Assembly (NCBI GenBank): GCA_021014945.1
Contig: MU266347.1
Location: 1 to 64,000, forward strand
DNA length: 64,000 nucleotides
Source of the DNA: Leucogyrophana mollusca
Lineage: Eukaryota; Basidiomycota; Agaricomycetes; Boletales
Direction of reading: 5' to 3'
Every line of letters begins with the position of its first letter. Position 1 is the first letter of the stretch. This document shows positions 25,724 to 45,176 of the stretch, one piece after another. Both the position numbers and the translations under genes were made by a program. A model generated the notes under the pieces. It was not told the origin of the DNA. It made no database searches and was given only the letters and a program-made list of their open reading frames with translations.

Positions 25724-28315
25724 ATGTCTCTGGCTCTCAAAAATATAAACCTCAGCCTTGCGAAGCGCTCGAGCGACTTGCTCCTTCGACACTCCAGTCG
25801 TGGCGCAGTCCAACCTGCTCTTGACCGCTACAGCACAATCCGATCGTTCTTCAAGCGGCAGATAGTCACACCCGCTTCAGGTGAGGCCCTCCAGCAAAGG
25901 CCTCATATACACGCGTCTCTGGGGCCTTTACAACATCACAGATGTCGCCGTGATATATCTTTGCACTTTGCGCAGCACGGTCGCTGGCAGAATCGGTTCG
26001 CACATTCAGAGGCTAACCGGGGGGACAAGACGAAGGGCTCCAGCTCCGTACACGAACAGGAGGCTAATGAAACTGGACTTCACAAGAACGACGGTTCCCC
26101 TCACCCAGCCGGAAACAGTGCCCATGGCCCACCACTCAATCTCGAGAACTATCCCCGGCTTTATCGAAGACTAGCTCTCTCGCTCTCCCATTTACATCGT
26201 CCGACTCGCGAGGACTTTCTAAAAGTCACCACCAACTTTTGGCAGCGCCTTCGAATCCGCTTCAAATGGTTTACTATTCGGTCATTTCGGAGGTTCAACG
26301 CAGACGATATATCTGCTTTCATAACATGGTTCCTGATGAGCCAAACATTGTGGATACTAGTCGGGACGTACGTTACCAGCCTTTCATAGGGTTTCGTTAG
26401 TTAACATGATCTTCTCTTATAGAACGACGTTCTTTTCTGTCATTTTTGCCACGGCTAACAGTCTGCGCTTGCAAGGTGGGGTGAATGCTATCTTTTGGTT
26501 TATTGTTCTGACAGCCGTCCTTAGAGCACGTCGCACGTGCTATCAGCAACTATTTAACCAGCGAGACAGGAGTCACCGTTATATTCGAATCAGCCATTGT
26601 TCCTAAATGGAAGGATTCACGCATCTCGTTCAAGAACGTGTATATATCCCGACGACCCATGTCTTCGTCCACGGCTTCTCGGCGTCGCAAGGCTGCTGGG
26701 CATAGGGCCGCGATAGGATACGACGTCAGCAGTCATCCCGCGTACAATGACTCGGGAGAAGACGAAGACGAGCCGGTCGAGAGCAATGCTGAAGAGGATG
26801 TCAATTACTCTATGTTCGATCTGAATGTAGACTCTATCGACGTCACTTTATCCCTCCAGCGGTGGTTGAACGGAAAGGGTCTGGTTGAGGATGCCGTCAT
26901 CAAGGGCGTGCGTGGTGTGCTAGGCAAGTGGTGATGCGTGGCGAGCCTCGCTTCCTTGTTTGCTTATGCGCTGTCCAATTCAGACCGGCGGTCAGTATTC
27001 TGGGATCCTGAACACCCACTTGATCCCGCGACCTTTCGCCATGTCGAACAACCAGGGGACTTTGAACTAAATTCGCTTCAATTTGAAGACGTCTTGCTCA
27101 CCGTGTACCAACCGGGTGACTTCAGGCCATATACGGCTTCAATATTCCGAGCAGATATACGAACATTTAGGAAACAGTGGCTATTCTACGATTTTCTCTG
27201 CGCTGAAAACGTAGTTGGCCAGTTCGACAACTGCCTGTTTAGCTTACACAAACCCCAAAGCATTGGCAGAACTACGGACCAAGACCTGAAAGATGGGAAG
27301 TGGTCTCGTATGGTAAGCGTGTCCGTGACTCTGAAATGCTTTCAGTACTCACTTGCAAACTACAGTCGAGAATCCGCATTGATGGCGTCAACATCGATCA
27401 TCTACAAAATTCCACCACCCAAGAAGGTCCCATTTCTTGGATTACCTCCGGGAAAGTGGACGCTGTCCTCGACATCAAGTTCCCTCGCGATCCAGAGGAT
27501 GAATTTGCCTTTAACGCCATCTTAGGGGAACTGGCGGATGCTATAACAACCGCTGCCTCGGCTTCCCTCTCCATCGAACGTATACCCGGTCAGAGGGAGC
27601 TTGCAAAGCCTCCCTTGACAGCCCCGTCGACTGACGATACGAGCCAGACCGCTGATGTTCCGAGAGTTGTGATCGACATAGATCTCAGATTTAGAGACTT
27701 GAAAGCTGCTGTGCCGTTGTTCACGCAGGATCTTTCATACGTGAACAGCGCTCTAATACGGCCTATCGTTGCTTTTATGAAGTCAGTATGACCCTCGTGC
27801 TAGTGCAGCGAAAAGCTGATGTGTTTATAGTGCACACCATACCCTGGTACCCATCCATTGCAAAGTGGTCAAGAATCTGAGCGATTTTGATGGAGCTTGG
27901 ACGGTAAGTCCTGGTTGTGTTTACGCTGTCTCATTCAACTCATGGATCACATAACAGATGTGGGAAAGTAAGATATCATTTCTCATTCCTTTTGACCTGT
28001 ACTAAATTTATTGTCCTTCAAGCGGGCCTCATGGATGAAATTTCACAAAAGGTACGTATCAGGCTTCGACTCGCGCTACATGTGACCAACTATTGTCTGC
28101 ACCAGACCTATGATGCTTTAGCATTCCACGTCTCACAGGTCAACCTTAACCGACGCGTTAAAGCTGTCAGCATATGGAGCCTGCAGATGACGGCCAGCGC
28201 GATGTTGTCCGCTCTGCGGAACCTAGTGGACCCGATGGCGGTTCAAGTACGAGAGCTACGAGAGCTTTACTATGTGAACGGGGTGCCATATGAGGCACTC
28301 GTCCCGGGGCCATAG
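25724..28315 (+). CDS. MDM31: Mitochondrial inner-membrane protein Mdm31/Mdm32
   Basis: Starts at ATG 25724 (MSLALKNINLSLAKRSSDLL), an Arg/Lys/Ser-rich, acid-free N-terminus typical of a mitochondrial presequence. The first membrane segment is FITWFLMSQTLWILVGTTTF. The family core follows: TVIFESAIVPKWKDSRISF, KNVYISRRP, then YSMFDLNVDSIDVTLSLQRW and GLVEDAVIKGVRGVL. Further on are VLLTVYQPGDFRPYTASIFR, RFRDLKAAVPLFT and ALIRPIVAFMNAH. It ends NGVPYEALVPGP with the stop at 28315. Mdm31 and Mdm32 are paired inner-membrane proteins needed for mitochondrial shape and nucleoid stability, linked to lipid homeostasis. The sequence does not let me choose firmly between the two. A small Glu-rich insertion follows SRRP (about 26.67-26.8 kb). 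Confidence 0.85.
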
Positions 28316-28757: not shown

Positions 28758-31666
28758 ATGAGTTTACACACTACCGCTTCCGCGCCTTCGAGGTATTCCT
28801 CAACATCCAATGAGAAAGGTGATGGTGATGAGAGCAGGGAGGAGCGTATTAATGATTGGTCTGGTTTGAACCTGGCGGAGATGGAGGGCCGTGTTGGTTT
28901 CAAGGGGCTCTTCCAGAACAAATTCGTGTGAGTGGCCAAAGGAGCATCCGCTTTCATTGCAGACTGACGAGCGGACGCACATTTTCTTTGCTCGATGCAA
29001 CAGGTCGGGTGTGGCTATGTTTGCGACACTCGGAGGATTCGTGAGTGATTGTTGTTCAAGATGAGATGTAAACCGATTCGTCACCTTCTATACATCACAA
29101 CGGAACATAGCTTTTTGGTTATGATCAGGTTGGTTCTCAGCCTCGGCCTCAGAATACGGTTAGTTGACAATGTGCAAGGGAGTTGTTAGCAATGTGCTTG
29201 CCATCGAATCGTTTGGCGCAGCGTTTCCAGAAATATATTCTGATGCCTCTTTGAAGGTAAGTGAATGATGATTAACGTTTTGTTGTTTTTTCACATCTTC
29301 CCTCATAGGGGTGGTATGTTTCAACTCTCCTGATAAGTTCGTCGCGCGTTGAACCAGATTATTACGGTTGTCGCTAACGCGGCGTCATTGTTTAGCTGCC
29401 TGGCTCGGTTCTCTCCTCAATGGCCCCGTTTGTGACAAAGTACGTCGCTGGTATGCCACCGATTTACCAGAATTAATGCAATGGTGTAGATTGGGCGGAG
29501 GAGAGATATCATGTGCCTTGTTGTCATCTTCCTCTTTGGTAGTGCCTTACAGACAGGTGCAACGGCTTCGGGTGAGTCTGTTGTGTCGACAATGCTCTAC
29601 AAACCGGTTCCTAATTGCATGCCTAGCTTATCTATTTGGAGGTAGAGCCGTTGCCGGAATTGCGGTTGGCGCCTTGACCCATGTCGTTCCAATGTACCTG
29701 GCTGAAATATCTAGTGCAAACATCCGGGGAGCATTGGTTGCACTCCAGCAAGTAGCAATTACATTCGGTGTACGTCCCTTGACTACGCTGTGTTCATTGG
29801 TTGCTGATAGCTGTATTCAGATTCTTGTCAGCTGTAAATCCTTTATCTCTTACCTTCTCTCATGGCCTAAACACCACTCCCTCCAGACTGGATTGCTTAC
29901 GGGACATCCCATATCGGTGGGACTCGCTGCGCACCTGAAATACCCTACTCCGGTCCCCTTTTGAACGGCAGTCCTACTTTCGACCCGTTTAACGATGTCC
30001 CTGCCGGCGGCTGTACAGGACAGACACAGGCTTCATGGTTGGTTTTATCATGTCCCTCCCTTCCGCACCTGGTACTTAATGACATTAAATAGGAGAATCC
30101 CAGTGGGCGTACAGATGTTCCCCGCCTTAGTGAGCAAAGATCCGCGACTTGTAAAGGAGCATTTCTGATGGGGTCGGACAGTGCCTCGGGTTTGGCATGA
30201 TATTCATGCCCTACTCTCCCCGTTGGCTTATGGAAAAGGGACGGGATGACGAGGCTATTCAAACTTTGTCTCGTCTTCGCTGTAAACCGGCGGATGCGCT
30301 GTCCGTGCGCTTCGAATATTTGGAGATCAAAGCCGAAATCCAATACACCAGAGAGGCAAGAGAAGCAGCGTACCCGAATGCTGGACGCGTCAGGCACCTT
30401 GTCAACAACTATTTGATGCTTGTTTCGAGTTGGCCAAAGTTCAAGCGTCTCGCCGTCGGATGTCTCGCCATGTTTTACCAGCAATTTGTGGTCGGTATTA
30501 TCGTGCTGAACCCGATTACCTTACGAACTCACGACGAATTTGCAGGGCTGTAATGTACGTTAAAAATTATACATGAGCAATGTCCTTGGTTCACATGTGC
30601 TTATGTTTGGTACGTGTTAGGCAATTATCTATTATGCTCCTACCAGTGAGTTTGTGTATACCTCTTGGCCGCCTCCTCGGCTCATTGATAAATACCTCTG
30701 TAGTCTTTGGTCAACTGGGACTGAACCCGAACACAACTTCCTTGCTTGCTACCGGCGTTTATGGAGTGGTCAATGTATGCCCGTACATTCTTTTGGTGTT
30801 AATCGAACTCATGGATGTTGGTTGCCCCCAGTTCCTTTTCACATTTCCAGCTGTTTTTCTCCTGGACAGCGCGGGCAGGCGCCCACTCCTTATGTGCGGT
30901 GCTGCTGGTTGTTTCGTGGCTCTGGTCGTAGTAGGTTCCCTGGTTGCCGCTTTCAGCACGGATTGGCTCAGTCATCCTACCGCTGGGCGCGCGGCGATCG
31001 GTGAGAGTGACACCTGGCATGATCTAACTCGAAAACGCTAACCGTTTGGATAGCATTCATATTCCTGTACGACGTCAACTTTTGCTACTCTTGGGGCCCA
31101 ATTGGATGGGGTGCGAGTTCCTTTGTCGATTGCGCCTTCTGACGACTGATATCTCCCTGTCGAACCCCAACAGTCTTGCCGAGTGAAATCTTCCCCTTGC
31201 ATCTGCGGTCGACTGGGATCTCGATCGCGGTTTCGACCGCCTGGATGGCAAACTTGTGCGTCCTTGGTGTTTCACGTTGTCTCCACCGGAAGTAACTCAT
31301 ATCGCTGTCCAGCATCATTGGCCTCGTATCCCCGATGATGTTAACCCAGATTGCAGACGGAGGAACGTACTACTTCTTTGCTGGTTTCGCCGCGTTGGCT
31401 TTCTTCACTACCTGTGAGTCTTGTCGTTTTACTCTATATTGAACCTCCTGACAATACTGGACAGTGTTCTTCATCCCAGAAACGCGAGGCAGGGTGAGTT
31501 ATATGGGGGGCTCTTCCTGGTCTATTGCTGACGCTACACCCAATTCTAGACCCTTGAGGAAATGAATGCTGCATTCGGAGACCACGCGACTGACAAGGAA
31601 CGAGAGCGGATGGAGGCCATATGTCGTGACCTCGGACTGCCGGAAAAAGCTTTACTCGCAGCTTGA
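28758..31666 (+). CDS. MFS sugar transporter, tandem copy 1
   Basis: Intron-rich gene for a 12-helix major facilitator of the sugar/H+ symporter family (PF00083 type). The first ATG in frame is 28758. The cytosolic N-terminus contains the SGLNLAEMEG and GLFQNKFV elements shared with copy 2. Family signatures in order: GGFLFGYDQG, IGRRRDIM after helix 2, VGALTHVVPMYLAEISSA, SHIGGTRCAPEIPYSGP, SPRWLMEKGR (usual PESPRWL site), AIIYYAPT, SAGRRPLLM and FFIPETRGRTLEEM. The C-terminus is KERERMEAICRDLGLPEKAL. Exon junctions check in phase where tested, such as Y-WIAYG across the intron near 29.88 kb, so it looks intact. By family it imports a hexose or related polyol at the plasma membrane. The substrate cannot be assigned. 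Confidence 0.85.
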
Positions 31667-32242: not shown

Positions 32243-35124
32243 ATGCCTTCAACGAGCTCACGATATTCCACGACATCAAATCCTAAAGATGATGAAGAGG
32301 ACACCAGGGAGGAGCAAATCCATGATTGGTCTGGGCTAAATCTAGCACAGATGGAGGGTCATGTTGGCTTTAGAGGGCTATTTCAGAACAAATTTGTGTG
32401 AGTGGTCACAGGGAGACCTTTTTCGTTACAGACGAATGTGACGCGCGAACGCGCTTTCCGCGTTTTTAATACCATAGGTTGGGTGTAACATGCTTTGCGA
32501 CGCTCGGAGGATTCGTGAGTGGTTAATAATGAGAGGACACAAACAGGCTCACCAGTTTTCCATTCCGTGATCAAACGTAGCTATTCGGCTACGATCAGGT
32601 TAGCTTTACTGGCTCATAGGACAAGGAGCAAACGGATGACCTGCAATATTTGGCAGGGAGTTGTTGGCAATGTTCTCGCCATCGAGTCATTCGGTGCAGC
32701 GTTCCCAAAGATATATATGGACGCGTCTTTGAAGGTACAGAAACTAGTTGGTAATAATCTCTTTTCTAATAACATAGGGTCATAGGGGTGGTTTGTCTCG
32801 ACACTCCTGTTAGGTTGGTCCCCGATTGAAACGGCACCTCACACTCACGCTGAAGTACCATAACCTCGATTAGCTGCATGGTTTGGTTCGCTTCTTAACG
32901 GCCCAATATGCGATAAGGTGGGTTGCCCGTCACTTAGATCTTGTGGTGGCTGATGAAGAGCTGTAGATCGGGCGACGGAGAGATATTATGTGCAACGTTG
33001 TAATCTTTCTCCTGGGTAGCGCCCTACAGACAGGCGCGACATCTCCTGGTAAATCTAATCCCTTGGGAAAGCATCTGCATCCCGGGTCTTAATCACAATT
33101 ATAGCGTACTTGTTTGGCGGCAGAGCGGTTGCGGGGCTTTCAGTTGGAGCCCTGACTCACGTCGTTCCGATGTATTTGGCCGAAATATCAAGCGCAAATG
33201 TTCGAGGATCACTAGTCGCACTGCAGCAACTATCAATAACTATGGGTGTATGTCCTTCATGCCATGGTTTTCTATGGATGAACGCTGACGGCAAACATCC
33301 AGATCCTCGTCAGTTGTAAGTCTGAGTCTGCACGAACCTCGCCCTCGATAAACATAGTTTTCCTAGATTGGATCGCTTATGGGACGTCGCATATCGGTGG
33401 AACTCGCTGTGCGCCTGAAATACCCTACTCTGGACCCCTTCTCAACGGCAGTCCTACTTTTGACCCGTTTAACGATGTCCCTGCTGGCGGTTGCACAGGA
33501 CAAACACAGGCTTCATGGTTAGTATGAATACTTTCGCCTTTTCCCGTACTAACTGTAACATCAATGGAGGAGAATCCCAGTTGGCCTGCAAATGTTTCCG
33601 GCTCTAGTAAGCACGATATCCGTGTTTTTTGAGGGTAGCTTTCTGATGATGGGGTAGTGCCTCGGCTTTGGAATGATGTTCATGCCCTACTCTCCCCGTT
33701 GGCTTATGGAACAAGGACGAGAGGAGGAGGCTATTGAAACACTCTCCTTGTTGCGTCGCAAGCCTGCTGATGAGCTTTCCGTTCGATTCGAATTCCTAGA
33801 GATCAAGGCCGAAATCCGATATGCCAGGGAAGCACGGCAGGCGGCATACCCGAATGCTGGACGCGTCAAGCATCTTCTGAACAACTATCTCATGCTTGTG
33901 TCGAGCTGGCCGAAGTTTAAACGTCTCGCCATCGGATGTCTAGTCATGTTTTATCAGCAATTTATGGTATGCAGTTTTGCCGGATGCTCATCATCTTACT
34001 CACGATCAAGACTTTCAGGGCTGTAACGTGAGTTGGTCTTCGTTATTTTAGCCAATTCAGGCGTGCTCATTCCATGTAACAGGCAATCATCTACTATGCT
34101 CCGACCAGTGAGTTACTATGTTTTGTCATGCGTGGAGTTCAGCTCTTATACCGCTCCAGTTTTCGGACAGTTAGGACTAAATCCAAATACGACGTCTTTG
34201 CTTGCCACTGGAGTGTACGGGATAGTCAATGTATGTCTATCAAACTCTCTGCTCGCCTGAGTCGAGCTGAATGATCGTGGCTGTCACTAGACTCTTTCGA
34301 CATTGCCAGCTGTTGTTCTTCTCGATAGCGTAGGCAGGCGTCCGCTCTTGATGTGCGGTGCTGCCGGCTGCTTCGTATCCCTAGTTATTGTAGGCTCTCT
34401 CGTCGCTGCCTTTGGCACTGATTGGCCAGCTCATCCTACGGCTGGGCGCGCAGCCATTGGTAAGTGGGAAACCCAAAGGCTTTGCCTTTGGCATGCTAAC
34501 AGCGGGAATAGCATTTGTTTTCTTGTACGATGTTAACTTTTCCTACTCTTGGGCCCCGATCGGATGGGGTACGAGTTTCCGTTCTGGCCCTATCATCCGA
34601 TTGCTGACAAACGTTCGTTGTGCCCCTGACAGTTCTGCCGAGCGAAATCTTCCCATTGCATCTGCGATCCACCGGTATCTCGATCACAACATCGACGACT
34701 TGGATGGCAAACTTGTGCGTCCCCAGTGTTTGGAGCCGTTCTCACAGGGACTGACACGCCTCTGTCCAGTGTCATTGGCCTTGTCTCCCCAATAATGTTA
34801 ACCAAACTTGCACATGGAGGTACTTACTACTTCTTTGCTGGGTTTGCCGTCTTGGCTTTCTTCACCACCCGTGAGTCCTGGTTCTTTTCTTCATGTGCGC
34901 TACACCTCATGATGTGATGTAGTGTTCTTCATCCCCGAAACTCGGGGCAGAGTATGTTTTTCTACGAAGTTCTTTTCCTTATCCACGCGCTGAACCCATT
35001 TTTCTAGACCCTCGAAGAGATGGATGCTGCATTTGGCGATAATGCGACTGACAAGGAACGAGAGCGGATGGAGTCTATATGCCGCGACCTTGGGCTGCCA
35101 GAAAGAGCTTTGCTTGCCGCTTGA
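32243..35124 (+). CDS. MFS sugar transporter, tandem copy 2
   Basis: Paralogue of the transporter just upstream, same strand and same exon order. Landmarks are conserved: GLNLAQMEG, GGFLFGYDQ, IGRRRDIM, VGALTHVVPMYLAEISSA, SPRWLMEQGR, VGRRPLLM, VLPSEIFPLHLRSTGISI and FFIPETRGR. The tail again reads ERERMESICRDLGLPE. An in-frame ATG at 32174 would add 23 residues. I chose 32243 because it aligns with the copy 1 start and because a TATA box sits directly before 32174. Introns differ in sequence while exons are strongly alike, pointing to a tandem duplication that is not very recent. No break was found. Differences between the copies in the exofacial loop and in the helix 10 segment (ITTSTTWM against IAVSTAWM) could change affinity; this is inference. 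Confidence 0.83.
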
Positions 35125-35617: not shown

Positions 35618-37326
35618 CTAAGCTTTCTCAACACCGGCGACGTCCCTCGCAGAGTAAAGCCAGTTAAAGTCTGTCCCTGTTGCCCACCCCACCACACCAG
35701 GAGCATCTCCGGGCTGTGTAGCGCTATAAATTATGCGATTGGGTGGATATGGGTACGACTTACAGCTTGGGCAGCCTGCTTATCGGGTAGAAATAATTAA
35801 TCCTCTGCCACAAGATATAAGGCTAGGACAGAGGCTTACGGCTTCGTGGGTCTTCTCAACAGCGGCGACGTCCTTTGCAGAATAAACCCAGTCAAAACGG
35901 TCTGTCCCCCACCCGACCACGGCAGGAGCGTCTTCGAGCTATGGGCAGCAGCCAGTCATGCATGTGTCTGGACTAGTTTAGGGGTGAGACTTACCGGCTG
36001 CGGAGCCTGCTTCATGGTATTATCCTTAAGCAGTTTGTCTCAGATGGAAGAACAAAGACAACAGCTTACGGTCTCTCCAACCTTCTCGGCGGCGGCAACC
36101 TCCTTCGCAGAGTACACCCAATCAAAGCCTGACCCTGTTGCCCATCCAATCACGGCAGGAGTATCTTCAGTCTGCGTGGAGCTGTTAGTTATGAATCTTT
36201 AAGCTGGGGGGCGCTGCTTACAGCTTGTGGAGCCTGTTATTGGCAGCAGCATTGAGCGACTAGGCTTAGTTGTAGAACGAAGACATTGCCTTACAGTTTC
36301 CTGAGCCTTCTCAACGGCGTCGACTTGCTTCGCAGAGTAGACCCAATCAAAGTCCCACCCTGTTGCCCACCCAATCACGGCGGGAGCATCATCATGCTGC
36401 ATAAAGCTTTCAGTTGCGATTTTTGGACCGAGGTGGATGTTACTTACAGCTTGTGGGATTTGCTGAATGGCGCCAACCTCAGGAGCTTGTCTCGGATCGT
36501 AGAACAAAGGCAAAAGCTTACGGTTTCTTTGACATTCTCGACGGCGGCAACTTCCTTCGCAGAGTAAACCCAATCAAAGTCCCACCCTGTTGCCCACCCA
36601 ATCACGGCGGGAGCGTCCTTGGACTGCATAGGACCTTCAGCTGCGCTTGTTGGACCGAGGCGGTTGTTACTTACAGGTTGTGGGACCTGTTTGATGGCGC
36701 TAACTTCAGAGGCTTGACTCAGATTGTGGAACGAAGACAATAGCTTACGACTTCCTTGACATTCTCGACGGTGGCAACTTCCTTCGCAGAGTAGACCCAG
36801 TCGAAGCCGGACCCTGTTGCCCACCCGATCACGGCGGGAGCATCGCCGCGCTGCATAAAACCTTCAGTCGCGCTCGTTTGGACTGAATGTTACTCACAGC
36901 TTGTGGGGCCTGCTCAATGGTGCCAACCTCAGGAGCTTGTCTCGGATAGTATAACAAAGGCAAAAGCTTACGGTTTCTTTGACATTCTCAACGGCGGCAA
37001 CGTCCTTCGCAGAGTAGACCCAATCAAAGTCCCACCCTGTTGCCCACCCAATCACGGCGGGAGTATCCTCGGACTGTGCGGAGCCCTTTGGTCACGCGTG
37101 TTGGGCTCGGATGAAGGAGTTGCCGTAAACAAAGGCAGTAGCTTACCTGAGCCTTCTCAATGGCGGTGACATCCTTCGCAGAGTAAACCCAGTCAAAGCT
37201 GGAGCCTGTTGCCCAGCCAATCACTGCGGGAGCGTCTTTAAGCTGTGTATGAATTTCAGTGGTGCACAATCGATCTGAAATGGTGAGTTGACCTACAGTT
37301 TGCGGGGCCTGCTCGATTACATCAGC
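35618..37326 (-). repeat. Tandem repeat array, about 225-230 bp unit (exon plus intron)
   Basis: Eight units share a coding part (rc of GCAGAGTAGACCCAATCAAA and its variants). Six of the seven spacings are 224-230 bp, and the spacing nearest the unique domain is shorter (about 170 bp). Both exons and parts of the introns are alike between units, so duplication copied exon and intron together. The left-most units (35.6-35.9 kb) are the most diverged. This is a protein-coding array, not a satellite. Confidence 0.85.
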
Positions 37327-37964
37327 CTGAGTAACTTAGCCTAGGTTAAAGAATAGAGATAATAGCTTACGGTTTCTTGAGCCTTCTCAAGTGTCTCCAT
37401 CAACTCATGCGCAACACCAGCGCCCACGTCGTGGACGGGATCATAGCCACTATCAGCCATCTTCTTACGAAGAGCCTTACCATCAGCCTTGTCAACCTTC
37501 ATTCCATTTGGCGTCAGTGTAGAATAAGGATACGCGCAAAACTGACTTACCCGGTAACGGTCCAAATAGACGGTACCGCAAACGCAGCACTCGAGCTCGT
37601 GAGGTGTCGATGTGTTCCGGTGGGGGTGTGTAAGAGCGTTGATCATGAATTTCTTGGTGTGCACACCAAGCTTGAGTCCGGTGCCCACGAAGTCGTCGAG
37701 TCCAGAAAGTTTACCGCAACCATGGCAAACGTACTCAGGGGTGGTGAGGGCATGACCTTTGACATCAAAGGTGGAGAAGTCGACGTCGAGGAGGGTGGAA
37801 AGTCGGTTGGACTGCTTAATGTCGATCTTCCACAGATGGGCACCTTGGGGAAGGAGCTTCGGCTCTACTTTCCGGAGGGCGTTGCTACACAAAGGCCAGA
37901 ATCAGTGCGACTGACAGCCACGACCACTAAAGACAACTGACACGGGAGATTGAACTGCAAGCAT
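35618..37964 (-). CDS. Unassigned Cys-pair protein with tandem repeat exons, paralogue 1
   Basis: I do not recognise this family. Minus-strand exons: 37942-37964 (MLAVQSPV), 37551-37884 (334 nt) and 37371-37496, then eight repeat exons at 37147-37242, 36972-37073, 36749-36850, 36522-36623, 36295-36396, 36070-36171, 35840-35938 and 35618-35713. Every repeat exon is 96-102 nt and phase 0 at both ends. The stop replaces the last residues of the final repeat. The N-terminal domain has CHGCGKLSGLDDFV and ELECCVCGTVYLDRY, two Cys pairs suggesting a zinc ribbon. The repeat is about 33 residues, around APAVIGWATG, FDWVYSAK and a VAAVE helix. In-frame microexon candidates (37297-37326, 36898-36927, 36675-36686, 36448-36477, 36222-36233, 35995-36009, 35764-35778) encode short PQA-type linkers. 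With all included, the protein is about 475 residues. No signal peptide or membrane segment is seen. Confidence 0.7.
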
Positions 37965-39642
37965 TGCGATGAGTCGTCTGTGGGTCGGGAAGCTTCCTTG
38001 AACTCTTGCTTTACTGCACAGACATAACCTCCCTTTTATACCTTTGTCGTAGTGCGACATCCATTGGTGTGCTCGCGCCACTGTCCTTGGTCAACTGAGG
38101 TCCTGACATGATGCATAGAATGCACGAAAGGGACCTGTCCACACTTCCATTCACCTTGTCAAACCACTATGTCATGAAAGTGCGCCCCTCACCCCTGGCG
38201 GTCGATTCAGACATCCGTCTGCTACATCTCCAGAGCATACCAGGGCGGTATGTGCTTGCTGACGAAAAGAGTGCCTTTCTCATTCATGCGTCCTGTCCAT
38301 TACCGTGCCTGTTCTCGCCGTTGAACCTTACGCTGTGACACGAATCGCAGAATTAATTCCCTATTTGGGCCTTGTGCTTGTGAAAGGACCTCGGCGAACA
38401 TAAGGGTATTCCAAACCGGCGCCAAGCCTCCCCGCTCGTCGCCCGAAGTACAGGGTTTAGTGAGTTGGAGTTGCGACAGCGAACTTCGAGGCACATGTGA
38501 GTTGTGCGAGATACTTGTTTTTCACCATCAAGGAACAGTGATGATGATGGCAATGATGATGTGGCAATTGTGTGCGACGCGTACGATGTACCATCCAGTG
38601 CCTGGCACTGTGGACAGTGAAGTCCATGTGCCCTGTTGCTCATTGCAAATTGCTGAACCGAACTCGGAAATCGCTATGGGTGCAAATTGTAAAGATTTAC
38701 GGCACAAAGGAGGCTGACAACTTCAGGACGCACAGATAGTGAAGAAAGGCCCCGACTTATCCAGCATGTAGCTAAACTTCGGAAAGGCGTTGAAGGTGAG
38801 GATGGTTATTTCTCTAGTTAGTTACGCAGTCGACGGTAGTGACAAAATCAACGAGGGCTAGTCCCTGATCATGACTTCGCGTGTAGCGTAAATATGAGGT
38901 GCAAGGATAGAAGAGGAATGTGCGCAGTGATACTTGAACGACGGTCTGCGAGCTCCGGTCCGTCTGGATAGTCAGAAAGTAGCCTTCACCATTGCCACAG
39001 TTCTGGGGAAGTTTCTGACATGAAGTCATTGTGCCATCGCTAGCTCCTGGTTGAGTGTGTCGAGATCACGCAGAAAAGTACACGCGGACTTGAGCTAGTT
39101 GGTTAACTCATCGTAAACACCGAGCAGTATTAGCCAGCGCTAATCGGTAGTTCGTTGGGTGCGGCTGCGTAGTCTGGGTTGTTGGTGGGTGTTGTCGCGC
39201 AGAGCTTTGGTATGGCCGATGGCATGTATGGAGCAACGAGTTGGCTCACAGACGTGTTAAAAGCGACATTGAGATGGAGAACAAAGAAAAACATTGAAAA
39301 GATGCTGGCCAAATTTCCGAGCAGGCTGCAAGATAGGTCAAAGTGCAAAATTGGAGTTAAGCTTAGCCGCGAGCCCACCACTTGCGTGAGTCACGTGAAA
39401 TATTCTAGAAAGACCCCATGAAGGCCCTCTTCACGGGACAACGAATTACATAGTACATTTCGACTTTACAAGTACAACAACATGTTTCGAGACATGGACT
39501 TGGGGAATCAACAGGTAGGGGCTGGGCAGATACATTCAAGATCGTATGAAGAACGAGAAACCTGGAATTGATGGGAAAACTCGTGTATGGCGGAGATGTC
39601 AGACAACTCAAGGCTGAGGTGGAAAATGAAGCCTGCAGACAC
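37965..39642. other. Spacer between the two repeat-gene paralogues
   Basis: About 1.7 kb. The right-hand side of the 37.96 kb gene (on the minus strand its upstream region) carries a TATA box, listed separately. The remaining open frames, such as those at 38.1-38.7 and 39.1-39.4 kb, show no family features. No further copy of the Cys-pair domain or of the repeat was seen. Confidence 0.4.
38035..38041 (-). promoter_or_regulatory. TATA box of repeat gene paralogue 1
   Basis: TATAAAA on the minus strand lies about 70 bp before the ATG at 37964. It is followed by GGG, as in the paralogue (TATAAAAGGG in both), so the core promoter is shared. Confidence 0.65.
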
Positions 39643-40369
39643 CTAATAGGCCGTGCTGCATTCTTCAATAGCGGCAATGTCCTTCGCCGATCGCCCCCAC
39701 TCGTCCGAAATCCACTGAACCATGGCAGGCTCATCCTCGTGCTATATGTACAGTCGTACGGTGAGCATTGCGAGTTGGACAAGATTTTATGAGCGGTCGC
39801 TTACAGTTCGTTGAGCCTGCTCAATGGCTGCGACGTCCAGAGCAGAACGTTCCCACTGCTGATCAGATATCCACTCAACCAGGGCGGTAGCACCTTTAGA
39901 CTGGATATCCAAACTTGAGTCATATTTTGGGTGACGATTTACAAGAAGTTGCTTACAGTTTTCTCGGCCTGCTCGATAGCTGCGACATCCAGAGCAGAAC
40001 GTTCCCACTGCTGATCAGGTGTCCACTGATACAGGGCGGTAGCACCTTCAGACTGCATTTCCAACCGTGAGTCGTATTTGGGGTGAAGGATCAAAAGAAG
40101 TCGCTTACAGTTTGCTCTGCCTGCTCGATAGTGGCAACTTCCTTCGCAGATCTCCCCCAGTCCTCGCCACGTTGGTTCCAAATGTACNNNNNNNNNNNNN
40201 NNNNNNNNNNNNNNNNNNNNNNNNNNNNNNNNNNNNNNNNNNNNNNNNNNNNNNNNNNNNNNNNNNNNNNNNNNNNNNNNNNNNNNNNNNNNNNNNNNNN
40301 NNNNNNNGCAGATCTCCCCCAGTCCTCGCCACGTTGGTTCCAAATGTACGTGCCAGGAGCATTCTTAGT
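39643..40369 (-). repeat. Tandem repeat exons of paralogue 2 (about 152 bp unit)
   Basis: Units of one 96-99-nt phase-0 exon plus a 56-63 bp intron recur with a spacing of about 152-162 bp. Two central units (39805-39900 and 39957-40052) share long identical stretches, indicating recent duplication. The spacing is shorter than in paralogue 1 because no microexon-bearing intron lies between most units. Confidence 0.75.
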
Positions 40370-41130
40370 CTGGTGACAGTATAGCCTTTAGTTGTGCGTG
40401 AAACAACGTCACACAAATAACCACTTACGGTTTGCTCAGTCTGTTCGGGAGCAACAACGTTCAGTCATGTGCTTGGCGCGGGGTACACCGCTCACTTACC
40501 GTTTGTTCAGCAACAACCTCCGCCGCCGGGCGTTCCCAGCGCTCAAAGCTGGTCCACCCGGGAGTAGCAGCAGCGCCTACTTCGTGGCGCGGGTTATAGC
40601 CACTGTCGGCCATTCTCTTACGAAGTGCTTTCCCTTCCTCTTTGTCAATCTTCAAACCGCTTGACGTCAGGCGCGGAATGTGGCTATGAAGAGAAAGTAC
40701 GGTGTACCCGGTAGCGGTCCAAATAGACGGTGCCACAGACGCAGCATTCAAGTTCATGAGGCGTCGATGAACTGCGGTGGGGACCCGTGAGGGAGTTTAT
40801 GATAAACTCTTTGGTATGGACACCGCGGCTGAGTCCGGTGCTCACGAAGTCGTCCAGTCCGGAAAGTTTACCGCAGCCGTGGCAGACGGACTCGGCGGTG
40901 TTGAGGACATGACCTCTAAGATCGATAGCGGCGAAGTCGATGTCCAGGAGGGTGGAAATACGATCGCACTGGTTGTCGTCGATCTTCCATAGATGGGCGC
41001 CTTTGGGAAGTAGTTTTGGCTCTACCTTTCGGAAAGCGTCACTACACCGTTACGAGGGCCAGGTCAGCGCAGTCAACAGCTAGCACAACGGGGAGAAAAA
41101 AACTAACACAGGGGATTGAACTGCGATCAT
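39643..41130 (-). CDS. Unassigned Cys-pair protein with tandem repeat exons, paralogue 2
   Basis: Paralogue of the 35.6-38.0 kb gene. Exons: 41108-41130 (MIAVQSPV), 40708-41041 (again exactly 334 nt), 40500-40649, a 12-nt microexon candidate at 40429-40440, then repeat exons ending with 39957-40052, 39805-39900 and 39643-39741 (stop at 39643-39645). The exon at 40109-40369 is interrupted by an assembly gap. The N-terminal domain keeps VCHGCGKLSGLDDFV and ELECCVCGTVYLDRY, plus GKALRKRMADSGYNP. The repeats differ from paralogue 1: WISDQQWERSALDVAAIEQA in place of WATGxxFDWVYSAKxVAAVE. The first repeat (GWTSFERWERPAAEVVAEQT) sits in the third exon. Collapsing the gap flanks gives about 302 residues. 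I infer a zinc-binding head plus a protein-binding repeat tail. The function is unknown. Confidence 0.68.
40188..40307. other. Assembly gap of 120 N within a repeat exon
   Basis: The bases just left (40146-40187) and right (40308-40349) of the gap are the same 42-bp sequence. Removing the gap and one copy leaves a single 99-nt phase-0 exon (40109 to 40369), like its neighbours. The gap is therefore either an assembly artefact from overlapping contig ends or hides extra repeat units. Confidence 0.9.
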
Positions 41131-43590: not shown

Positions 43591-45176
43591 ATGCCGAATC
43601 AAAAGGTGAGCTGGCCCCAGTGGGCAGCTTCCACGGTCTCCTTGATCTCAGGCGGTCTAACTGACGACGACGGATCCGCGAACTTGAAGACAAATGAAGG
43701 ATCACGATCCAAACGCGACGGCAAGGAGGTACGCCAGTTCCCGCTGCGCCCCGCTGCGCCCCACTCAGACGGCCAGCACTGACAATCAGCCGCAGCCAAA
43801 AGTACCGATGGGTGCAGGTGCTACGGAAATGAAAAATATTCCACGAGGCGCAAGTTCCAACGTGAGTGCCTGAACGCTCCATGAAGTGCACAACGCCGAC
43901 CATATTGATACTCCAGGACTCGCGGAATGTTGTGGTATTTGGGGAGAGTGGTGTGGGGAAGAGTTCTTTGGTAAACATAATAGTCGGGTCTGGAGTTGCG
44001 AAGACGTCCAGTGGAGCGGCTGGCTGCACCTTCGACTATTCCCGCCACGAAGCCATTATAGACGGACGGCCGTTCGGTATCTGGGATACAGCGGGACTGG
44101 ATGAAGGGGATTATGGGACGGTCCCTGCGGCAAAGGCAGAAGAGAACTTGAAGGGGCTTCTACGTGATCTAGTGAAAGCCAACGGGGTTGACCTCATCGT
44201 ATACTGCGTCCGCGCCACGCGAGTTCGCAAAGCGTTACAGAAGAACTACAACATCTTCTACTCCGCCATCTGCAGGAAAAAGGTGCCCATCGTGATCGTC
44301 GTTACTGGGCTGGAAAACTACGAGGGGGAGATGGACGGATGGTGGAGAGACAACGAGAAGGAGTTCATGGCACTCAACATGCGTTTTGACGGCCACGCAT
44401 GCGTGACGACCCTTGATCTGAATGTGGTCAAGTCGGACATCCTCCTCGCTCGTCGCGAAGAGTCGCAACGAAAAGTTCGGGATCTTATCGTCAGCCGCTG
44501 TTCAAGTAGACGCTGGAGCACAGACGGACGGACCTGGTCGAATGCCGCCATCTCTGGCATGCGATCCATCACACGCTCCCAGAAGCGCCAAAGTCCGACC
44601 GCACCGAATGTCATACTGTGCGACATCACCGCTCAAGAAACACGCCCAGCTGTGACAAAGCCTCAAAAGTATACAGTGGACTTGGTTGCCAGCGGAGGAG
44701 TACTCCGTATATTTCGCATTCAAGACATGGCTAGAGGGAAAAAGCTCGTCAAGAAATTGTCGACAGGACTCCTGATCTTTTGTGCAAGCGAGGACCAGCT
44801 CAACGACACCAGGCCGTTAGACCAGTTCTACGTGTCCTACGGCGGGGAAATCACACCGATGATTATTGTGATCAAAGGTACCGAGTCCCAGGGGTCAACA
44901 CAGGACCGAATCAAGTCTCGTCTCTCAGCCTCACTAAGAGAGAATGTGGACGTCTGCTACCTCAGCGAGGCCGACGGAGCGAAGAGACAGCTGAGAGAGC
45001 TCATAAAGCTTCGCTGTCTTGATATTGGCGATGATGTTGGAGCTTATAGCGACGACGATGCCCACAGTCGCTCTTTTTGCTGCTTTGGCAGAGGTAAAGG
45101 GAAGACAGTAGTGACAAGAAACGAGGGCATGGATTTTCTAACACGGTCGAAGATATGGACCCCGAGAAATCCGTAA
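43591..45176 (+). CDS. P-loop GTPase (AIG1/dynamin-like G domain) with degenerate second half
   Basis: Exons 43591-43728, 43790-43861 and 43917-45176 join in phase to give 489 residues. The G domain starts near residue 71: NVVVFGESGVGKSSLVN holds the P-loop (G1), and GIWDTAGLDEG is the switch II DxxG (G3). G4 is non-canonical: where NKxD is expected, the strand reads VIVVTGLEN. No membrane segment is seen. The second half (about residues 300-440) again has the strand pattern of a G domain (VDLVASGGVLRIF, LSTGLLIFCASEDQLND, MIIVIKGTES) but no P-loop, so it may be a pseudo-GTPase domain. The tail is Cys/Lys-rich (SFCCFGRGKGK). A shorter first exon ending at MPNQK is also possible. Related G-domain proteins are expanded in mushroom genomes, with no settled function. 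Confidence 0.7.

Follow-up and report, generated by a model that had tools for sequence, protein, structure and literature searches.

Tandem PF26731 paralogues with tails of tryptophan-dyad repeats in the fungus Leucogyrophana mollusca

What kind of protein results when a small head with two cysteine pairs is followed by a string of tryptophan-containing units, nearly every one of them encoded by an exon of its own? The question is raised by two adjacent minus-strand genes, here called A and B, at positions 35,618 to 41,130 of a 64,000-nucleotide (nt) window, the first 64,000 nt of contig MU266347.1 (assembly GCA_021014945.1) of Leucogyrophana mollusca. Leucogyrophana is a wood-dwelling genus and belongs to the Boletales. 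Judged by their sequences, genes A and B are tandem paralogues of the Pfam PF26731 protein family, seen so far in fungi, and both the exon anatomy of the pair and its family assignment are well supported. The string of units appears to have been built up from copies of a tail motif, of which several relatives have one or a few.

Gene models and exon anatomy

The predicted model of gene A runs from an ATG at 37964 to a TAG ending at 35618, and that of gene B, which lies upstream, from an ATG at 41130 to a TAG ending at 39643. Gene A has 18 exons and encodes 456 residues: a 23-nt exon 1, a 334-nt head exon and a 126-nt exon 3 are followed by eight unit exons, each of 96-102 nt, and by seven micro-exons, six of them 12 nt long and one 15 nt. 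Exons 1-3 of gene B are laid out as in gene A, with an exon 3 of 150 nt that includes the first unit; one micro-exon and four further units follow, giving 302 residues once an assembly gap is collapsed. The initial annotation, made from the letters of the window, had rightly noted that the second exon (37884-37551 in A, 41041-40708 in B), encoding CHGCGKLSGLDDFV and ELECCVCGTVYLDRY, and the exon 3 motif GKALRKxMADSGY are common to both genes. Its description of nearly every repeat as a phase-0 exon of 96-102 nt holds for gene A: all eight repeat exons fall in this size range, and phase 0 is the starting phase of each of the 16 exons from exon 3 to the end. The first unit of gene B is an exception, lying within exon 3 and reading PGWTSFERWERPAAEVVAEQT. 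The initial annotation had overlooked the micro-exons of 12-15 nt. The gene B repeat exons after exon 3 measure 99 (across the gap, collapsed), 96, 96 and 99 nt, each divisible by 3; phase-1 values for the last three arise from counting started within the gap and do not represent a real phase shift.

The genome (32.3 Mb, 545 contigs) holds two copies of the head in a search at E ≤ 0.001, and the sequence TATAAAAGGG is present 76 bases before the gene A ATG and 71 bases before that of gene B. Two public protein models correspond to the pair: P0001 (L. mollusca BV22DRAFT_163358; 98% identity across 87% of the query) to gene A, and P0002 (BV22DRAFT_1117214) to gene B. We regard P0001 as partial because it begins at 38060, upstream of TATAAAAGGG, and runs into an intron, stopping after two of the eight units. 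At R2 it also adds four residues (GSAQ), as if the acceptor lay 12 nt further upstream. The features of the two genes, all on the minus strand (-), are as follows.

38040-38031 (-): TATAAAAGGG before gene A (sequence position)
37942..37964 (-): gene A exon 1, 23 nt, MLAVQSPV (gene model; layout matches gene B)
37551..37884 (-): gene A exon 2, 334 nt, Cys-pair head domain, PF26731 (model, annotation, alignment)
37371..37496 (-): gene A exon 3, 126 nt, VDKADGKALRKKMADSGYD, its end resembling the helix part of a unit, METLEKAQET (model, P0001)
37297..37308 (-): gene A micro-exon 1, 12 nt, APQT (sequence pattern and P0001)
37147..37242 (-): gene A unit R1, 96 nt (model and P0001)
36972..37073 (-): gene A unit R2, 102 nt (model; the R1-R2 spacer has no micro-exon)
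36898..36909 (-): gene A micro-exon 2, 12 nt, APQA (sequence pattern and P0001)
36749..36850 (-): gene A unit R3, 102 nt (model)
36675..36686 (-): gene A micro-exon 3, 12 nt, VPQP (candidate from sequence)
36522..36623 (-): gene A unit R4, 102 nt (model)
36448..36462 (-): gene A micro-exon 4, 15 nt, QIPQA (candidate from sequence)
36295..36396 (-): gene A unit R5, 102 nt (model)
36222..36233 (-): gene A micro-exon 5, 12 nt, APQA (candidate from sequence)
36070..36171 (-): gene A unit R6, 102 nt (model)
35995..36006 (-): gene A micro-exon 6, 12 nt, APQP (candidate from sequence)
35840..35938 (-): gene A unit R7, 99 nt (model)
35764..35775 (-): gene A micro-exon 7, 12 nt, AAQA (candidate from sequence)
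35618..35713 (-): gene A unit R8, last exon, 96 nt, with TAG in place of the CAG of R1 and R5
41201-41192 (-): TATAAAAGGG before gene B (sequence position)
41108..41130 (-): gene B exon 1, 23 nt, MIAVQSPV (gene model)
40708..41041 (-): gene B exon 2, 334 nt, Cys-pair head domain, PF26731 (model, annotation)
40500..40649 (-): gene B exon 3, 150 nt, IDKEEGKALRKRMADSGYN and unit U0, WTSFERW (model and P0002)
40429..40440 (-): gene B micro-exon, 12 nt, TEQT (sequence pattern and P0002)
40109..40369 (-): gene B unit U1, 99 nt after collapse of the identical 42-nt gap flanks
39957..40052 (-): gene B unit, 96 nt (model)
39805..39900 (-): gene B unit, 96 nt (model)
39643..39741 (-): gene B last unit and stop, 99 nt (model)

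The micro-exons were recognised as a block of the form [CT]AG, 12 or 15 nt, GTRRGY, which occurs in seven of eight gene A spacers and one of four gene B spacers. Every spacer of 121-131 nt has the block (8/8) and none of those of 56-73 nt does (0/4), counts to be read with the pattern having been defined after the blocks were noticed and with the gene A copies being duplicates rather than independent cases. Across both strands of the whole window the pattern has a background of 33 matches, or 0.26 per kb. The two genes are well diverged, though both hold the block, and three of the predicted micro-exons are translated in the public models: APQT and APQA in P0001, TEQT in P0002.

The gap in gene B is a run of 120 N (40188-40307) that lies between two copies of one 42-nt sequence. 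When these flanks are collapsed, a single in-frame unit exon of 99 nt results, and we therefore read the gap as a failed contig merge, probably an artefact of assembly.

The head domain and its family

The heads of P0001 and P0002 are annotated as PF26731 in precomputed records. A profile search with the head found 39 proteins, every one with an organism name being fungal, and the PF26731 signature carried by both genes is borne by 35 of the 39. A second protein search scored the best 7998 candidates by shared words. The genera represented are Tulasnella, Leucogyrophana, Pluteus, Exidia, Calocera, Orbilia, Arthrobotrys, Dactylella, Hypoxylon and Beauveria. Candidate relatives in bacterial or archaeal and in viral contigs (48 and 64 pattern matches) were all negative by tblastn. 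The head belongs to a real family, fungal so far, for which no function was found. The accession itself is silent on tail, units, exons and function; a full-text search returned no paper for PF26731, and literature searches returned none for the head motif GKLSGLDD or for the BV22DRAFT names. The initial remark that no named family has this arrangement is half right, for the head does have a Pfam accession.

The alignment of the head covers 38 of the 39 proteins, the truncated P0011 being left out. Eight positions are invariant (C53, C56, K58, S60, G61, L62, D64 and H75), and the cysteines of the second pair, C99 and C102, are each conserved in 36 of 38. The conserved core can be written C-x-x-C-x-K-x-S-G-L-x-D...H, together with two CxxC pairs. 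For one relative, Orbilia oligospora P0020, AlphaFold2 with 38 sequences returned a confident fold (predicted local distance difference test, pLDDT, 91.0; predicted template modelling score, pTM, 0.84), in which the pairs are separated by 42 residues and two helices. The same protein, a short member of the family, carries the UniRef name "RBP protein", under which no paper was found.

No solved structure, including solved zinc ribbons, matched the predicted head fold in Foldseek or VIA-align searches, and the best Foldseek match among viral models had E 0.19. Pfam scans of the heads gave matches below cut-off only, with P0001 and P0002 matching nothing at E ≤ 1. Across 38 members, NCBIfam likewise gave only weak matches: the list at E ≤ 0.1 has 17 families, several of which are small zinc-binding models, and the lowest E is 0.0057. 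Two PDB candidates were set aside: a designed Pizza chain found by sequence (E 0.0064), which was absent from the profile search, and Mcr-1, the best of the profile search (E 1.2), whose 22 residues with GLDDF we take as chance.

Classical zinc ribbons have two CxxCG knuckles. The head resembles them in having two CxxC pairs, with a glycine after the first in nearly all members and after the second in many, and in weak NCBIfam matches that include zinc-ribbon models; it differs in the 42 residues and two predicted helices between the pairs. The initial zinc-ribbon reading is therefore plausible from the conserved cysteines, but the fold matches no solved zinc ribbon, and because of this and the intervening helices a classical zinc ribbon is not established.

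Tail units and tryptophan dyads across the family

Each unit of genes A and B is centred on two tryptophans 4-8 residues apart. A dyad of this kind (W-x(2-7)-W) is found in 23 of 37 family tails, counted after P0011 and P0039 were dropped for lack of a tail; 2000 shuffles, in which related proteins count as independent, gave 14.7 on average and never more than 22. Gene B has five dyads and gene A eight, whereas the Orbilia, Arthrobotrys, Hypoxylon, Beauveria and Exidia members examined have none or one, and Tulasnella proteins have none to four. In O. oligospora P0020 the dyad forms the extreme C-terminal end, VFLWFSPSNWTF, and that of the Exidia member reads GWPDTFDWTYYARR. Tulasnella P0003 has three units (e.g., GWATGTGFDWKRL), Tulasnella P0004 four (RWAGYWKAR) and the remaining Tulasnella proteins none to two dyads; the environmental protein P0017 has three (LWPSCWTYTP) and P0008 two. 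The 20 relatives compared unit by unit were chosen with the dyad in view and are not a sample of the family (one of them, P0035, has no dyad by the pattern); in three gene A units the pattern took WATGW and in one P0003 unit WGAGTGW, the outer pair being 8 apart. The comparison thus supports the "growable" tail of the initial annotation: the dyad number varies from none to eight, many relatives having a single dyad in a short tail and some basidiomycetes several in tandem.

Similarity among units is far higher within proteins (mean score 94, 52 pairs) than between them (28, 383 pairs), in a set of 30 units hand-picked from 10 proteins with the one-dyad ascomycete tails left out. This indicates a local origin or local homogenisation of the arrays. 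Of the pairs between proteins, the highest score, 85, joins gene A to Tulasnella P0003 (maximum 48 in 200 shuffles) and exceeds the best score of gene A against gene B (66). The GWATGxGFDW form may therefore be ancient, gene B having drifted since; convergence or transfer is the alternative. From these comparisons, we regard the array as the amplification of a motif that many relatives have in their tails in one or a few copies.

A string of six gene A units drew a Pfam match to TetR_C_41 that passed its cut-off (E 4e-8, 33.9 bits, cut-off 27 bits), along with ten further, weaker matches. We read this as an artefact of a repetitive query because P0001, with its two units, matched nothing at E ≤ 1.

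Selection and copying of units

The heads of genes A and B differ with a ratio of nonsynonymous to synonymous substitution rates (dN/dS) of 0.13, and the eight gene A units have a pooled ratio of nonsynonymous to synonymous differences (pN/pS) of 0.37; head and units are, by these ratios, under purifying selection. Both tryptophans and 12 other positions, including F16, Y20 and S21, are invariant among the gene A units, and variation is greatest at positions 1, 2, 15 and 32, with 14-15 situated within the loop between the tryptophans.

Over six units (15 pairs each), unit exons average 79% identity and their flanking introns 64% and 60%, against baselines of 47% and 43% for shuffled introns. 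Together, selection and the greater likeness of exons than introns place the repeat layout beyond chance. The introns of U2, U3 and U4 are 72-95% alike, and the first intron of U6 is 71-76% identical to those of U2-U4. The introns of U7, at 46-62%, lie at or near noise, so that only in the middle of the array is copying of whole exon-intron units demonstrated. The closest exons are those of U2 and U4 (94%), with first introns 95% and second introns 74% identical, a likeness that might reflect duplication of two units or gene conversion.

Proposed function and alternatives

We tentatively propose, as a reading that is quite possible, that genes A and B encode intracellular adaptors in which a zinc-stabilised head is joined to an array of tryptophan-hairpin ligands that would be multivalent and would have expanded by duplication of exon-intron units. 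The four head cysteines would hold one zinc ion, and the head would perform a conserved task, whether binding or catalysis around K/S/D/H. Each dyad would close a small beta-hairpin followed by a helix, and each hairpin would serve as a ligand for the same partner, with tandem copies raising avidity or gathering several partners. Duplication of whole units or exon skipping could alter unit number with the frame kept, and the micro-exons would set the linker length between units. The proteins are placed inside the cell since a hydropathy scan (19-residue window; maxima 0.59 and 1.01) revealed no signal-peptide-like, strongly hydrophobic N-terminal or membrane stretch, no dedicated predictor having been run. 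The isoelectric points of the tails are 4.3 and 4.6, and those of the heads 8.6 (A) and 6.3 (B).

Several observations weigh against this proposal. Dyads are missing from 14 of 37 tails; some of these resemble truncated or wrong gene models, but the dyad-less tails of Pluteus P0019, Calocera P0032 and Orbilia P0037 may be real. The confident head fold is that of P0020, only 36% identical to P0001, and the early end of P0001 after two units may indicate a shorter true product of gene A. The hairpin around the dyad is itself weakly supported by the models. For P0001, AlphaFold2 places strand pairs and then a helix in each unit, but the model is poor (mean pLDDT 45.6, units below 50). In P0020, bridge residues 112-113 and 119 surround the W112..W118 dyad; confidence in that model is among its lowest at the chain end (mean 76 in the last ten-residue block).

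The same predicted strands and helix would also suit a folded solenoid, in which stacked hairpin-helix units form one recognition surface or spacer instead of separate ligands. A period of ~33 residues and conserved positions in the helix half (SAK, V25, E29) fit this view, which we nonetheless judge unlikely: the units are modelled with a confidence under 50, many relatives possess just one unit, and unit length, tryptophan spacing and linkers differ among relatives in ways that a tight solenoid would tolerate poorly.

The polar residues of the head could instead be an active site, K-x-S-G-L-x-D...H, beside a structural zinc, with the tail delivering the enzyme to its substrate. Identity of K58, S60, D64 and H75 in 38 of 38 sequences seems more polar conservation than a merely structural metal knot requires. 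Pfam, NCBIfam and structure searches yielded no convincing enzyme fold or family match, however, and this alternative seems distinctly unlikely.

Less probable again is that the units are amyloid signalling motifs of the type found in fungal NOD-like receptors (NLRs), with the head as the executioner that they trigger. Short repeated motifs C-terminal to a small domain and a patchy distribution among filamentous fungi would agree with it, and amyloid signalling characterises fungal NLRs (PMC9815663). In the L. mollusca genome, searches with the A units and with the B units matched nothing beyond the queried gene except one hit at E 1.08, although each search missed the units of the other gene, so that diverged copies elsewhere, for example in a receptor, would escape. 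Amyloid motifs are expected in a second, receptor protein, and the helix half of the unit is presumably unlike a bare amyloid motif; both points count against this alternative.

Neutral tandem duplication, with the array as dispensable padding, could account for units and introns copied together in part (U2/U4, exon 94%, first intron 95%) and for a last unit that stops at the TAG where R1 and R5 carry CAG, but the pooled pN/pS of 0.37 among the eight gene A units, frames unbroken in the models and retention of the dyad in many distant relatives make it very improbable. Argonaute hooks dock tryptophans in Argonaute pockets through conserved GW/WG dipeptides, and Stc1 is linked to Argonaute; a GW-type hook here, with a Stc1-like Cys head, is the least credible possibility, since the GW of gene A and Tulasnella P0003 units and the standing of Stc1 as the commonest weak Pfam match (3/14 members, best E 0.028) are outweighed by a Stc1 (PF12898) score of 13.8 bits against a cut-off of 24.8, a lack of GW/WG conservation, glycine coming before the leading tryptophan in just 13 of 41 dyads, and a head fold that matches no solved structure.

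The adaptor proposal can be extended to a fungal zinc fold that has no solved relative and bears a C-terminal tryptophan-hairpin ligand, expanded in some basidiomycetes into an array of exon cassettes whose valency is tunable by splicing outside the world of NLRs. Here, hairpin and micro-exon linker would be duplicated or skipped as one unit. This extension is unlikely as a whole; if true, the array would represent a recognition or scaffold protein of adjustable valency.

Whatever its function, the head family spans Orbiliomycetes to Boletales and has a confidently predicted fold for which no solved relative was found. The tails form a natural series in which one motif is present from zero to eight times, in separate exons in this pair, and the effects of valency should accordingly be testable with existing relatives. 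The pair offers an apparent case of a fungal protein growing a repeat array by copying exon-intron units, and its run of micro-exons was partly missed by gene finders, the public model of gene A having two of the eight units.

Comparison with known repeat systems

The C-terminal repeat domains of fungal NLRs (WD, ANK, TPR) have high internal repeat conservation (PMC4986451). Genes A and B have in common with them a C-terminal array of closely similar tandem repeats in a protein of a filamentous fungus. The pair differs in that P0001 and P0002 have no Pfam match and hence no NACHT, NB-ARC, WD, ANK or TPR domain; the spliced gene A model likewise consists of head, exon 3 and units only, with no NACHT or NB-ARC. 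The units of genes A and B, compared with those NLR repeats, are under overall purifying selection.

A closer parallel in gene structure comes from Tuber melanosporum, whose NACHT-ANK genes contain 3-bp mini-exons (PMC4986451, PMC9815663 and PMC10197012). Tiny whole-codon exons lie in the repeat region of both systems, and splicing could alter that region without a frameshift. The protein family is another one, and the micro-exons of genes A and B are 12-15 nt long, with at most one per unit, so that the pair shares a style but no domain with the truffle genes. A 2024 paper presents functional micro-exons as previously undescribed in filamentous fungi (PMC11121469), though the truffle mini-exon work is an earlier report of micro-exons. 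Among literature titles on symmetric exons, tandem exons, tryptophan repeats and hairpins, nothing relevant was found apart from the NLR papers.

Neighbouring genes

Upstream in window coordinates, two similar plus-strand frames at 30155-30550 and 33658-34023 both contain CLGFGMxFMPYSPRWLME; the first matches Pfam Sugar_tr (E 1e-9), and the two are probably tandem sugar-transporter genes. A further frame at 34394-34792 has no Pfam match. Part of a mitochondrial MDM31/MDM32-like gene (E 1e-43) lies at 26512-26931 on the plus strand, and on the other side of the pair a long plus-strand frame at 43866-45173 encodes a GTPase domain (MMR_HSR1, E 1.8e-13; AIG1, E 4e-7).

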